DNA of 64,000 bases from an uncultured Mailhella sp. GTDB taxonomy: Bacteria > Desulfobacterota > Desulfovibrionia > Desulfovibrionales > Desulfovibrionaceae. Both the position numbers and the translations under genes were made by a program. Shown here in pieces: positions 60,014-63,564 of the stretch (position 1 is the stretch's first letter; every line of letters starts with the position of its first letter). The stretch is taken from positions 2,125,001-2,189,000 of the forward strand of contig NZ_OZ007001.1 in the NCBI RefSeq assembly GCF_963931295.1, in the 5' to 3' direction. The notes under the pieces are model-generated. The model was not told the origin of the DNA. It was given only the letters and a program-made list of their open reading frames with translations, and ran no database searches.

Positions 60014-60664
60014 ATGAAATCCGTACTGCTCATAGGACTCGGCCGTTTCGGCCGCCGCATGGCAAGAAAGCTGCGCGAACTGAATCACGACGTGCTCGCC
60101 ATCGACAAAAACGAACAGCGCGTCAACGAAGCGCTGGACTTCGTGACCAGCGCCCAGATTGCGGACGCCACCAGCGAAACGTTCATCCGCTCGCTGGGCG
60201 TGAGCAATTTCGACATGTGCGTGGTCGCCATCGGCGACGACTTTCAGAGTTCTCTGGAAACCACGGCGCTGCTCAAGGAGCACGGGGCGCGCTTTGTGCT
60301 GTCCCGGGCGTCGCGGCAGGTTCACGCCAAGTTCCTTCTGCGCAACGGCGCGGACGACGTGGTGTACCCCGAGCGTCAGACCGCCGACTGGGCCGCCATG
60401 CGCTACAGCAGCGATCACATTTTCGACTACGTGAAGCTCTCGCCCGAGTATTCCATTTACGAGATAGCCACGCCCGAGGAATGGCAGGGCAAGACCGTGA
60501 AGGAACTGGCCGTGCGTCAGCGCTACCGGGTGAACGTGCTCGGCGTGAAGAAGGGCGACGAGCTCCAGCCCATGCCCGGCCCGTCGCACTGCTTTCAGGC
60601 CGGGGAAAACGTGTTCGTGCTCGGCCACGACATGGACGTGCAGAAACTTCTTCGCAAAAACTGA
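60014..60664 (+). CDS. ktrA: KtrA/TrkA-type potassium uptake regulatory subunit
   Basis: 216 residues. RCK regulator with an N-terminal Rossmann fold (LLIGLGRFGRRMARKL, then LAIDKNEQRVNEAL with the ribose-binding acid) and a C-terminal RCK_C domain (EIATPEEWQGKTVKELAVRQ). It binds nucleotide and gates KtrB. AGGAG precedes ATG 60014. Confidence 0.94.
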   Translation: MKSVLLIGLGRFGRRMARKLRELNHDVLAIDKNEQRVNEALDFVTSAQIADATSETFIRSLGVSNFDMCVVAIGDDFQSSLETTALLKEHGARFVLSRASRQVHAKFLLRNGADDVVYPERQTADWAAMRYSSDHIFDYVKLSPEYSIYEIATPEEWQGKTVKELAVRQRYRVNVLGVKKGDELQPMPGPSHCFQAGENVFVLGHDMDVQKLLRKN

Positions 60665-60683: not shown

Positions 60684-60712
60684 TTGCCTCAACGATTCCG
60701 GCGTGCTACTAT
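60684..60712 (+). promoter_or_regulatory. promoter of the padR-radical SAM locus
   Basis: TTGCCT (60684-60689), 17-base spacer ending in TGC, and TACTAT (60707-60712): extended -10 type, overlapped by a palindrome at 60708-60730. Confidence 0.6.
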
Positions 60713-60730
60713 TGGAGCAAATCCAATAGT
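60708..60730. promoter_or_regulatory. perfect 9-bp palindrome, probable PadR operator
   Basis: ACTATTGGA-GCAAA-TCCAATAGT. It covers the -10 and expected transcript start of the padR promoter, 66 bases before the start codon, as expected for autorepression by a dimeric PadR-type protein. There is no T-run, so it is not a terminator of ktrA. Confidence 0.6.
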
Positions 60731-60796
60731 CAGGGCCGACGGGCGTTCCGTGTTGTTCGGAACGTTTTTTGCGCGGCTCTTTTCGGGAGAAAAGGC

Positions 60797-61258
60797 ATGG
60801 ATGAGCTTGATTCCTGCGCCTGTTCGGGCGGCAATCTGCCCCGTTTCGTGCAGCCGGTGCTGCTGGGGCTGCTGGTTCGCGAGCCCATGCACGGGTATGC
60901 GCTCGTGCAGAAGCTGGAGGACACCGGCCTGTTCGGGCCGCAGCCGCCGGACATGACGGGCTGCTATCGCATGCTGCGCGACATGGAGCGCAGCGGCGTG
61001 CTGGAAACGGAATACGACAGGGGAGACGGCCCGGCGCGGAAGAAGTACCGCGTCACGGCTCTGGGGCGGCGCTGTCTGAACCGCTGGATATCGTCGCTCA
61101 CGAGCAATCGCGATCATCTCGACAGGGTGCTTGCGCTGCTGCTCTCCGCGCGGGATGCGGATGCGCAGGACCCGTGCCCGGAGGCGGATCGCGCCTTCAT
61201 GGAAGAAGTGCGTCGGCGGGCGCTTTCCGGAGCGCTGCCTAGGTTCAGGACTCATTAA
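60797..61258 (+). CDS. PadR-type HTH domain, N-terminal part of an IS-interrupted PadR-radical SAM fusion
   Basis: 153 codons as it stands. Residues 15-95 form a PadR winged helix: RFVQPVLLGLLVREPMHGYALVQKLE, then DMTGCYRMLRDMERSGVLETE and KKYRVTALGRRCLNRWI. The N-terminus has a CACSGG patch. Codons 1-149 are native; the last four residues (FRTH) and the stop come from the inserted IS. Removing the IS and one CTAG copy joins codon 149 in frame to the radical SAM sequence downstream. The regulator part may still bind DNA. Confidence 0.82.
   Translation: MDELDSCACSGGNLPRFVQPVLLGLLVREPMHGYALVQKLEDTGLFGPQPPDMTGCYRMLRDMERSGVLETEYDRGDGPARKKYRVTALGRRCLNRWISSLTSNRDHLDRVLALLLSARDADAQDPCPEADRAFMEEVRRRALSGALPRFRTH
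61243..61258. repeat. left terminal inverted repeat of the IS
   Basis: GTTCAGGACTCATTAA, matching the complement of the right end at 15 of 16 positions. Confidence 0.9.
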
Positions 61259-61688
61259 ATATAAAAGATGACAATGGCAGCGAGACAAATGGCCGAAAAG
61301 AACGTGTGTGCACAACGGTCATAACGCATGGCTATTCTGCGCCAATCCTTGAGTCGGCCGAACATGATTTCTATCTTGTGCCGCTGCTTATAAACCTCCT
61401 TGTCATAGACCACCGGAGTTTTTCGGCTGTGTCTGCCAGGAATACACGGCGTGATTCCTTTACGGGACAAGGCATGACGAAACCAGTCGGCATCATAGCC
61501 TCTATCCGCCAGAAGCTCCCTGGCCTGCGGCAGAGTATCAAGCAGGACAGCAGCGCCTTTGTAGTCGCTCACCTGACCGCCGGACAGATGGAAGGCCAAC
61601 GGTTGACCGAAGGCATTGCAGACAGCGTGGAGTTTTGAATTCAGGCCGCCTTTTGTGCGTCCGATACATCGGGAAAGGCCCCTTTTTT
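61255..61688 (-). CDS. IS5-family transposase, frame B (C-terminal DDE part)
   Basis: The frame is open from the A6 slippery tract (61688-61683) and reads KRGLSRCIGRTKGGLNSK, then LLADRGYDADWFR (second catalytic Asp) and KIEIMFGRLKDWRR (catalytic Glu), ending at 61255 inside the IS end. A first Met occurs only at 61599, so expression probably needs a -1 frameshift from frame A at AAAAAAGGGG. Confidence 0.85.
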
Positions 61689-62009
61689 CAGCAAACTTGC
61701 TGCTGTCCTGTGTGCCTTGAGATGTGTGGTATCAATCATCAAGCGTGTTGTGGAGCCGTTTTGTTCAACAAGCTCCGCAAAAATCCTGTTAAAGACACCC
61801 AATCGGCTCCAGCGGATAAAACGATTGTAGAGAGTTTTGTATGGTCCATACTCGCGCGGGGCATCTTTCCATTGCAGGCCATGCTTGATGACATAGATAA
61901 TGCCGCTGACGACACGCCTGTCATCGACTCTCGGAATGCCGTGGGAACGAGGAAAGTAGCGTTTGATACGAGCAATCTGTTCATGAGAAAGATAAAAAAG
62001 TTCCTTCAT
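61641..62009 (-). CDS. IS5-family transposase, frame A (N-terminal part)
   Basis: 122 residues. DUF4096-type N-terminus LSHEQIARIKRYFPRSHGIPRVDDRR, VIKHGLQWKDAPREYGPYK, and the first catalytic Asp in LMIDTTHLKAHRTA. GGGAGGATGCC precedes the ATG. It overlaps frame B, with which it would form one transposase by -1 frameshifting. Confidence 0.88.
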   Translation of the reverse strand: MKELFYLSHEQIARIKRYFPRSHGIPRVDDRRVVSGIIYVIKHGLQWKDAPREYGPYKTLYNRFIRWSRLGVFNRIFAELVEQNGSTTRLMIDTTHLKAHRTAASLLKKGAFPDVSDAQKAA

Positions 62010-62056
62010 GGCATCCTCCCTATGCCGACAATAAGAACTTTTTACCCTTTTGGCAA

Positions 62057-62072
62057 TTAATGAGTCCTGAGC
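62057..62072. repeat. right terminal inverted repeat of the IS
   Basis: TTAATGAGTCCTGAGC. The ATG inside it is now the first Met of the downstream radical SAM frame. Confidence 0.9.
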
Positions 62073-63001
62073 CTAGGCGGGAAGACGTGCTGCGTCTTCT
62101 TTCCTACGCGCCGGATTCGGCGCAGACGGCCTTTCTCGGACGCCTGGCCCGGCAGACGGCCCGCGAGGTTGCGGGCGACAGGGCGGGCGTGTGGGCGGCC
62201 TTCGGGGTGGACACTGCGCCCTGTTCCATGAGCTGCGCCTTTTGCGCGTTCGGCGCGTCGTGGGGCGTGGTGCGGGAGTCGCACGAGTGGGCGCAGGAGG
62301 AGATTGTGGCCGCGGCGCGCCGCTACGCGGCCGAGGGGGCGTCGTGGATCGTGCTCCGCACCACGGAACATTACGGCAGGGAGCGCCTGGAAGCGCTGGC
62401 AAAAGCCGTGCGCGCCGTGCTGCCGCCATCCTGTGCGCTCGTGGCCAACACCGGTCAGATGGCCGTGGAGGAGATTCGGAACCTCGGCAGGGCCGGCGTG
62501 CAGATGATGTATCACGCCCTGCGGCTCGGCGAGGGACGGGACACGCCCTTTGATCCTGCCGAACGCAGGCAGGCCTTGCGGCGCATCGGCGAGGCGGGCA
62601 TGGAGCTTGCGCATCTTGTGGAGCCGCTCGGGCCCGAACACGCCGATGAGGAAATTGCCGACGTGCTGCTTGCGGCGCTCGAAGCCGGGGCGAAAGTGTG
62701 CGGCGTGATGGCGCGCAGCAACGTGCCGGGAACGCCCTACGGCGGCGCGGAATCCGTGTCCGACGCGCGCCTTGCGCAGGTGGCCGCGGTGATCCGCCTG
62801 TGCGGGGGCGTGAACACGCCGCACGTGTGCGTGCATCCGCCGGTGTCGCAGGCCGTGGCCTGGGGAGCCAACGTGGTTGTGGTGGAAACGGGGGCCATTC
62901 CGCGGGACAAAAAGGAAGCCGCGGCGGACTGGCGGGGCTTTTCCATGGACGACGCCCGCGCGCTGCTTTTGCGTCACGGCTATGTCGTGGGCGGCGCGTA
63001 G
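62060..63001 (+). CDS. BioB-like radical SAM protein, C-terminal part of an IS-interrupted PadR fusion
   Basis: 314 codons as it stands; the first five (MSPEP) derive from the IS end and target duplication. Radical SAM cysteines C55, C59 and C62 in APCSMSCAFCAFGA; GASWIVLRTTEHYG and ANTGQMAVEEIRNLGRAGVQM follow the BioB/ThiH-like barrel pattern. The N-terminal helix EDVLRLLSYAPDSAQ is the usual BioB-family cap, so the enzyme domain itself is complete. The present start codon lacks a ribosome site. Substrate unknown. Followed 116 bases later by a C_GCAxxG_C_C protein. Confidence 0.82.
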   Translation: MSPEPRREDVLRLLSYAPDSAQTAFLGRLARQTAREVAGDRAGVWAAFGVDTAPCSMSCAFCAFGASWGVVRESHEWAQEEIVAAARRYAAEGASWIVLRTTEHYGRERLEALAKAVRAVLPPSCALVANTGQMAVEEIRNLGRAGVQMMYHALRLGEGRDTPFDPAERRQALRRIGEAGMELAHLVEPLGPEHADEEIADVLLAALEAGAKVCGVMARSNVPGTPYGGAESVSDARLAQVAAVIRLCGGVNTPHVCVHPPVSQAVAWGANVVVVETGAIPRDKKEAAADWRGFSMDDARALLLRHGYVVGGA

Positions 63002-63117: not shown

Positions 63118-63564
63118 ATGGTATCACGTTTCGGACTGTGCGCGCAGAAGGTGTGCCTGCACTGCGCGCCGCGCCTCGGCATTGAGGATTCGCTGGCCGT
63201 GGGCATGGCCTCGGCGTTCGGCACGGGCATGGGGCATGCGGACACCTGCGGCTGCATCTGCGGCGCGCACATGGTGCTCGGGCTTCGCTACGGCAGGGCG
63301 GACACGCTGGAGGAGGGCAAGGGCAAAAAGGCGCTGCTCGTGGAAAAGGTGTCGGAATTTGAAAGGCGTCTGTCGAAAAAGCAGCCGTGCCGTTCCTGCC
63401 GGGACATCCTCGGCATGGACATCACGCAGCCGGGCGTGATGAAGGCCGCCGCGGAAAAGGGCCTTTTTGCCACCGTGTGCGCGGACATGCTCGCGCAGAC
63501 CTGCGCGGTGCTCGACGAGATGCTTGCCGAGGACGAAAAACAGGATTCCCGCGCCGAGGCGTGA
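63118..63564 (+). CDS. C_GCAxxG_C_C family redox-type protein
   Basis: 148 residues. The conserved cysteine/glycine pattern is visible in CLHCAPRLGIEDSLAVGMAS, GMGHADTCGCICGAHMVLG and KQPCRSCRDILGMD, characteristic of C_GCAxxG_C_C proteins, small predicted redox or metal-binding proteins. TTGGAGGCATT precedes the ATG. Same strand as the radical SAM gene, probably one transcript. Confidence 0.85.
   Translation: MVSRFGLCAQKVCLHCAPRLGIEDSLAVGMASAFGTGMGHADTCGCICGAHMVLGLRYGRADTLEEGKGKKALLVEKVSEFERRLSKKQPCRSCRDILGMDITQPGVMKAAAEKGLFATVCADMLAQTCAVLDEMLAEDEKQDSRAEA

Follow-up and report, generated by a model that had tools for sequence, protein, structure and literature searches.

BirA and PutA are trigger enzymes, i.e., bifunctional enzyme-repressors. 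To our knowledge, few enzymes double as repressors, and we know of no radical SAM (rSAM) enzyme that does so. A related case is BzdR, in which an enzyme-like domain joined to a regulator has been turned into a sensor (PMC3602430). The locus described here resembles BirA, PutA and BzdR in that a DNA-binding domain and an enzyme (or enzyme-derived) domain are found in one chain. It differs from them in that the regulator is a PadR protein and the enzyme is an rSAM enzyme, and in that the same type of operator persists when the parts are separate genes.

Each part also has described relatives of its own. PadR proteins, including the PhaQ-like members of the family, share with the protein studied here a winged helix that leads into a long helix. 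The latter protein differs by an N-terminal CxC motif with a third cysteine, which the unlinked PadRs compared here lack, by a fused enzyme and by a distinct dyad. Biotin synthase, HydE and PylB have in common with the enzyme part a complete barrel and the CX3CX2C motif; they differ from it by a sequence identity of just 16-20%, by its own set of invariant residues and by different neighbouring genes. In the open-access literature we found no description of a PadR-rSAM fusion and nothing relevant on PadR proteins with pyrrolysine or with cysteine or metal sensing. The proposed control system, found in several phyla, is apparently undescribed.

We analyzed a stretch of 64,000 nucleotides from the genome of an uncultured Mailhella sp. 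(the whole stretch is hereafter called the window). Our main reading, to which we assign a probability of about 0.7, is that a recent insertion of an IS5-family element has disrupted a gene for a bifunctional regulator-enzyme at this locus, and that the intact form would be an autorepressing trigger enzyme.

The fusion gene and its interruption

The features of the locus are listed in Table 1. The inserted element, flanked by CTAG on either side, has 15-bp inverted ends, G[T/C]TCAGGACTCATTAA, and a minus-strand transposase, both halves of which match NF033580 IS5 (101 and 120 bits, cut-off 110). It was assigned to the IS5 family by its transposase domain, inverted ends and short target duplication. 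The duplication can alternatively be read as TA, and other inspected copies have CTAG or YTA-type flanks. The single-contig 3.17-Mb genome of the window strain (G000) carries 13 full copies with 98-100% identity, suggesting that transposition in this strain is recent. One fragment and one distant copy are also present in the genome. No Rfam element in the window reached its gathering score.

Table 1. Positions of the features of the PadR-rSAM locus in the window
Feature	Position	Strand	Details
TrkA-type potassium uptake regulator	60014-60664	+	upstream neighbour, after TrkH-like gene
Predicted sigma70-type promoter	60684-60712	+	TTGCCT 60684-60689, 17-bp spacer, TACTAT 60707-60712; by eye
Candidate PadR operator	60708-60730	.	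ACTATTGGA-GCAAA-TCCAATAGT, perfect 9-bp arms, overlaps -10
Terminator-like hairpin with T run	60738-60766	+	between operator and start codon
PadR half, 153 aa	60797-61258	+	native codons 1-148, then IS-derived codons and stop; PF03551
Codons Cys7-Ala8-Cys9	60815-60823	+	invariant CxC
Codon Cys93	61073-61075	+	third invariant Cys
Left CTAG target duplication	61239-61242	.	
IS5-family element, 830 bp	61243-62072	-	inverted ends, NF033580, CTAG
Transposase C-terminal ORF	61255-61599	-	DDE, NF033580; frame differs from N-terminal ORF
Transposase N-terminal ORF	61641-62009	-	DUF4096, NF033580
Radical SAM half, 313 aa	62060-63001	+	IS-borne ATG, native codons from right CTAG; PF04055 below gathering score
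Right CTAG target duplication	62073-62076	.	
CSMSCAFC, cluster-binding motif CX3CX2C	62222-62245	+	Cys198/202/205
C_GCAxxG_C_C family putative redox protein	63118-63564	+	downstream neighbour

After excision of the element and one CTAG, 1371 nt are obtained, i.e., 456 codons and a stop with no internal stops, and the junction reads CTG CCT AGG CGG GAA in frame. An earlier note on this DNA had placed the element and its CTAG duplications correctly and had claimed in-frame continuity over about 456 residues, as found here; the rSAM cysteines, which it expected at about 198, 202 and 205, are exactly at these positions. It had also claimed that neither half has its own stop or start at the junction. 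This holds for the restored gene and fails for the present one, in which the ends of the element provide both: the left end adds a stop a few codons into the element, and the right end contributes an in-frame ATG.

By turning repressor and enzyme into separate frames in the window genome, the insertion would sever their coupling. The repressor frame would stay intact behind the native promoter, and the enzyme frame would rely on the ATG borne by the element. Inspection of the sequence upstream of the enzyme frame revealed no obvious ribosome-binding site, and in the window genome this frame is probably poorly expressed. We infer a loss of function at the split locus.

The element is absent from a conspecific genome (G624, locus L173; apparently the same as the L060 record, uncultured Mailhella sp. 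BRZ_NM__bin46), where the site reads GAGCGCTGCCTAGGCGGGAAGACG. This is the empty site predicted from the excision of the element and one CTAG. The uninterrupted gene of this genome encodes a protein identical to the restored one in 451 of 456 residues. Full-length fusions, with PadR and rSAM domains in one uninterrupted chain, are also encoded by 7 of the 17 sampled congeners (63-80% identity) and by several Desulfovibrio. The empty site and the intact homologues in the congeners bear out the suggestion that the ancestor was most likely one gene. Within the genus, the two domains were not found as separate genes with a stop and a start at the junction. Such an arrangement was found in distant taxa only (Chloroflexi L074, Desulfobulbus L090, and Desulfovibrio L106, L108 and L182). 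Because separate genes occur in more distant taxa, the fusion is suggested to be the derived state.

It is vanishingly improbable that two neighbouring genes were joined merely by a sequence or assembly error. Such an error is contradicted by the single-contig assembly with its 13 copies of the element, by the fusions in seven congeners and other genera, and by the conspecific empty site, on which we rejected it. The PadR-rSAM fusion is real and ancestral in Mailhella.

Domains, fold and cysteine triad

The halves had been described in the earlier note as a PadR domain and a BioB-like rSAM enzyme; Pfam and a confident structure model agree on both. The PadR half passes the gathering score of PF03551 (52.8 bits, cut-off 27). 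Against PF04055, the rSAM half of the fusions scores 24.9-26.6 bits, which is below the cut-off of 29.5, and a stand-alone rSAM relative scores 35.7 bits. The rSAM half was assigned to the radical SAM superfamily by the CX3CX2C motif lying within a TIM-like barrel in the model.

The model was built for the conspecific fusion from 46 aligned sequences (mean pLDDT 92.4, pTM 0.85). Its layout is a winged helix (residues 19-87), a long helix (89-124), a connector helix (130-144), and then the barrel. The predicted long helix (pLDDT 75-85) is a candidate for the PadR C-terminal dimerisation helix, and the N-terminal 20 residues, including the CxC motif, are poorly modelled (pLDDT about 60). The element is inserted between residues 148 and 149, in the modelled loop (145-150) that joins the connector helix to the barrel. 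Over about 300 residues the barrel aligns with biotin synthase (Z 34.3), HydE (32) and PylB (31). The fusions and their stand-alone relatives have 43 invariant columns in common, including CX3CX2C, YHAxRxxEGxDT, EPxGxEH and CxHxP.

The curated cut-offs do not support an identity with any of the described enzymes that were considered. BioB was rejected with 39.4 bits against TIGR00433 (cut-off 225) and PylB with 16 bits for the window protein and 43 for the stand-alone relative (cut-off 348). HydE was rejected as well: no match was listed for the window protein, and the stand-alone relative scored 23 bits (cut-off 255). ThiH and MqnE failed on their cut-offs too. For the PadR half, the best NCBIfam match is TIGR02719 (PhaQ-like; 42 bits, cut-off 139), and the solved relatives are TM0937 (2esh) and 4ejo.

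Three cysteines, C7, C9 and C93 (window numbering), are present in 12 of 12 rSAM-linked PadRs. Among the eight unlinked PadRs (relatives without a neighbouring rSAM gene), none has any of the three. Several stand-alone PadRs also have C-terminal cysteine runs. Most simply, the triad would read a thiol-, metal- or cluster-based signal.

Clades of the enzyme, PadR linkage and candidate operator

A tree of 138 rSAM domains (a quick method, midpoint root) splits into two clades, A and B. PadR is linked to 24 of the 63 clade-A rows, including the split gene of the window, and to none of the 75 clade-B rows. With Mailhella excluded, the linkage is 15/54 for clade A vs 0/75 for clade B (p 6e-7), and among equally fetched loci it is 10/44 vs 0/34 (p 0.004); these p-values are optimistic, since related sequences are not independent.

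The linkage takes different forms, with PadR either fused to the enzyme or encoded next to it, on the same strand or divergently. Mailhella and some Desulfovibrio have PadR fused to the N-terminus of the enzyme. In Clostridiales and Fretibacterium MAGs (L080:5968-7299 and L083:5968-7299) the PadR domain is C-terminal; these two fusions form one supported group apart from those of Mailhella and Desulfovibrio. By this tree the C-terminal fusion arose independently, so that PadR and rSAM were joined on two or more occasions, in either order. A Chloroflexi MAG and Desulfobulbus elongatus have a PadR gene that overlaps the rSAM gene or lies immediately upstream of it; Desulfovibrio, Butyricicoccus and a Clostridiales MAG have PadR genes that are divergent from it or nearby. 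This variety of arrangements argues for a repeated functional coupling of the two proteins. A recognisable operator or PadR was found in only part of clade A.

Paralogues stand side by side in eight loci (L087, L089, L096, L098, L103, L105, L122 and L132). Most of these pairs combine a clade-A with a clade-B gene, and a C_GCAxxG_C_C gene often accompanies them; this looks like a single pathway with two radical SAM steps. In clade B, rSAM genes of five loci (L102, L111, L112, L123 and L129) are near glycosyltransferase-like genes resembling rSAM/selenodomain-associated transferases and near genes of MerA-like oxidoreductases and TVP38-like membrane proteins; these neighbours were identified by clustering and eye only.

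The predicted promoter of the fusion gene has a TTG-type -35 box with a 17-bp spacer that is seen by eye at the same offset in every Mailhella locus but L066. A stricter promoter scan did not list the TTGCCT/TACTAT promoter. The predicted -10 of the Mailhella fusion promoters is overlapped by a dyad with the general form ACTATTGGA-N5-TCCAATAGT and the consensus ACTATTGGAnTAAGTCywATAGT, which is degenerate in species L062. One pattern search of the 3.17-Mb window genome, allowing up to 3 mismatches, found this candidate operator once only, at the fusion promoter. The hairpin that follows it is either a leader attenuator or a chance structure: it is kept in the conspecific L060, with the T run interrupted there, and was not seen in other species.

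An operator matrix built solely from Mailhella sites was applied to the non-Mailhella loci. Of its 20 hits in 1.08 Mb, 15 fell in the regions upstream of clade-A rSAM domains, which total 36 kb; the expectation from shuffling is about 5 hits in 1.4 Mb. The versions of the dyad upstream of clade-A operons in other phyla diverge from the Mailhella form. Locus L086 has a second site ahead of an operon containing PadR. One of the 15, a weak match in L092, falls within a coding sequence and was treated as probably false. A refined matrix, trained on sites that the Mailhella matrix had found, adds no independent evidence; its sole high-scoring match upstream of a clade-B gene (L087_580) is in a locus that also has a clade-A paralogue.

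Presence of the operator tracks PadR linkage (10/15 linked vs 4/39 unlinked loci, p 8e-5, likewise optimistic). If the two are associated, genomes that have the operator and no PadR in the locus should encode one elsewhere. Such a PadR was found in all three genomes tested (L072, L076 and L085; E < 1e-36), and each of these proteins has the cysteine triad. In four genomes without a convincing operator (L067, L088, L091 and L092) no PadR with the triad was found. We consider it an even bet that the triad PadR, the 23-bp dyad and the clade of BioB-like rSAM enzymes form an undescribed regulatory module that occurs in Thermodesulfobacteriota, Bacillota, Synergistota and possibly Chloroflexota and that was fused in Desulfovibrionaceae into a self-repressing enzyme.

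The fusion could also be a passive tandem, in which PadR acts as an ordinary stand-alone repressor, the enzyme has no part in sensing, and joint translation simply fixes the ratio of the two. We rate this explanation a little short of an even chance. It is favoured by the separate PadRs of other phyla, which have the same triad and operator and no fused enzyme, and by the short connector between the modules, together with the modelled position of the insertion point in a loop. The repeated origin of the fusion in both domain orders speaks against it, suggesting that physical coupling is beneficial, and is not decisive. According to the trigger-enzyme reading, the fused enzyme may couple repression to the state of its cluster, SAM or substrate.

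Gene neighbourhood and proposed mechanism

The TrkH-like/TrkA-type gene order upstream of the fusion is shared in most Mailhella. The C_GCAxxG_C_C gene located downstream is also present in 16 of the 44 non-Mailhella clade-A rSAM loci. Stand-alone clade-A genes of several taxa are followed by an importer of the SsuA type, which among Mailhella adjoins the fusion in G017 only. A copy elsewhere in the other Mailhella genomes was rejected, as the matches have just 26-31% identity, as expected for generic SsuA-type proteins.

The fusion's enzyme part may be non-catalytic and serve purely as a ligand- or cluster-sensing domain. The usual lack of the relatives' dedicated ABC importer in Mailhella is consistent with such a role, as is the dyad of the fusion promoter being the sole close operator match in the window genome. 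We consider it very unlikely: the fusions keep CX3CX2C and all family-invariant residues, the codon differences between the conspecific alleles are 18 synonymous vs 5 non-synonymous, and the downstream C_GCAxxG_C_C partner is retained.

Near several clade-A members there are genes of a corrinoid protein, MtaA/CmuA, MttB, RACo, CobW and BCCT. An rSAM gene of the window family is present in 7 of 7 genomes with PylS, vs 41 of 288 Desulfovibrionaceae genomes overall (p 7e-7), and in six of the seven it is on the same contig within about 3 kb of PylS. Most rSAM carriers among the 288 genomes are without PylS, and neither MttB nor PylS was found in any of the 19 Mailhella genomes; on the latter result we rejected pyrrolysine/MttB as the general function.

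It is possible, if on balance unlikely, that the substrate of the pathway is a methylated amine or another corrinoid-dependent methyl compound, with the rSAM enzyme acting alongside MttB, corrinoid and pyrrolysine genes. The proximity to PylS and the MttB, corrinoid protein, MtaA, RACo and CobW neighbours agree with this, as does a triad PadR in a Pyl-like operon of Emergencia timonensis and another genome. The Mailhella genomes argue against it, and the many carriers without PylS show that such a substrate is not the whole function.

In L223, L224 (Emergencia timonensis) and L226 the triad PadR follows an apparent pyrrolysine operon with PylB/C/S/D-like, CobW-like and PylSn-like genes; the Pyl identities in Emergencia timonensis were assigned by eye. 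In this species MttB-like and corrinoid protein genes are also near the triad PadR.

Among the best NCBIfam matches of the relatives' SsuA-type importer are SaoX, SaoP and SaoA, the importer of a system described as Sec-assisted organometallic, SAO (PMC13188914). The importer of the relative L082 scores 54, 167 and 233 bits against these profiles, far under the cut-offs of 300, 295 and 360, on which SAO membership was rejected. For the binding protein, the SsuA_fam score is the higher one. Unlike SAO, most Mailhella fusions have no adjacent importer.

We regard it as unlikely that the compound processed by the pathway is a thiophilic metal(loid) or an organometallic, sensed by the cysteine triad of PadR. 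The invariant CxC...C pattern with the C-terminal cysteine runs, the presence of the three Sao profiles among the best matches, and ArsR-like or aquaporin-like neighbours identified by eye in a few loci point in this direction; the shortfall of every Sao score, the better SsuA_fam match and the small number of metal-related neighbours, recognised by eye, point away from it.

What we infer about the intact fusion from these comparisons, i.e., its DNA binding, repression, sensing and catalysis, may be put as follows. The winged helix of PadR would bind the dyad over its own -10 box and repress the promoter. The attached rSAM enzyme with the BioB/HydE/PylB fold would act on a small molecule. DNA binding would be lost through a change in a thiol, metal or cluster at the triad or through the enzyme domain's state, with derepression as the result. 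The intact fusion would thus be a single-target autoregulatory trigger enzyme, placing in cis a repressor that elsewhere is encoded separately, linked to the same enzyme clade and operator type.

The comparative data supply the regulator, the operator and the target enzyme together in several phyla. A clade of rSAM enzymes thereby gains a sensor and a reporter with which its ligand may be sought. Split and intact alleles within one species would provide a natural comparison between the uncoupled and the coupled state of repressor and enzyme.
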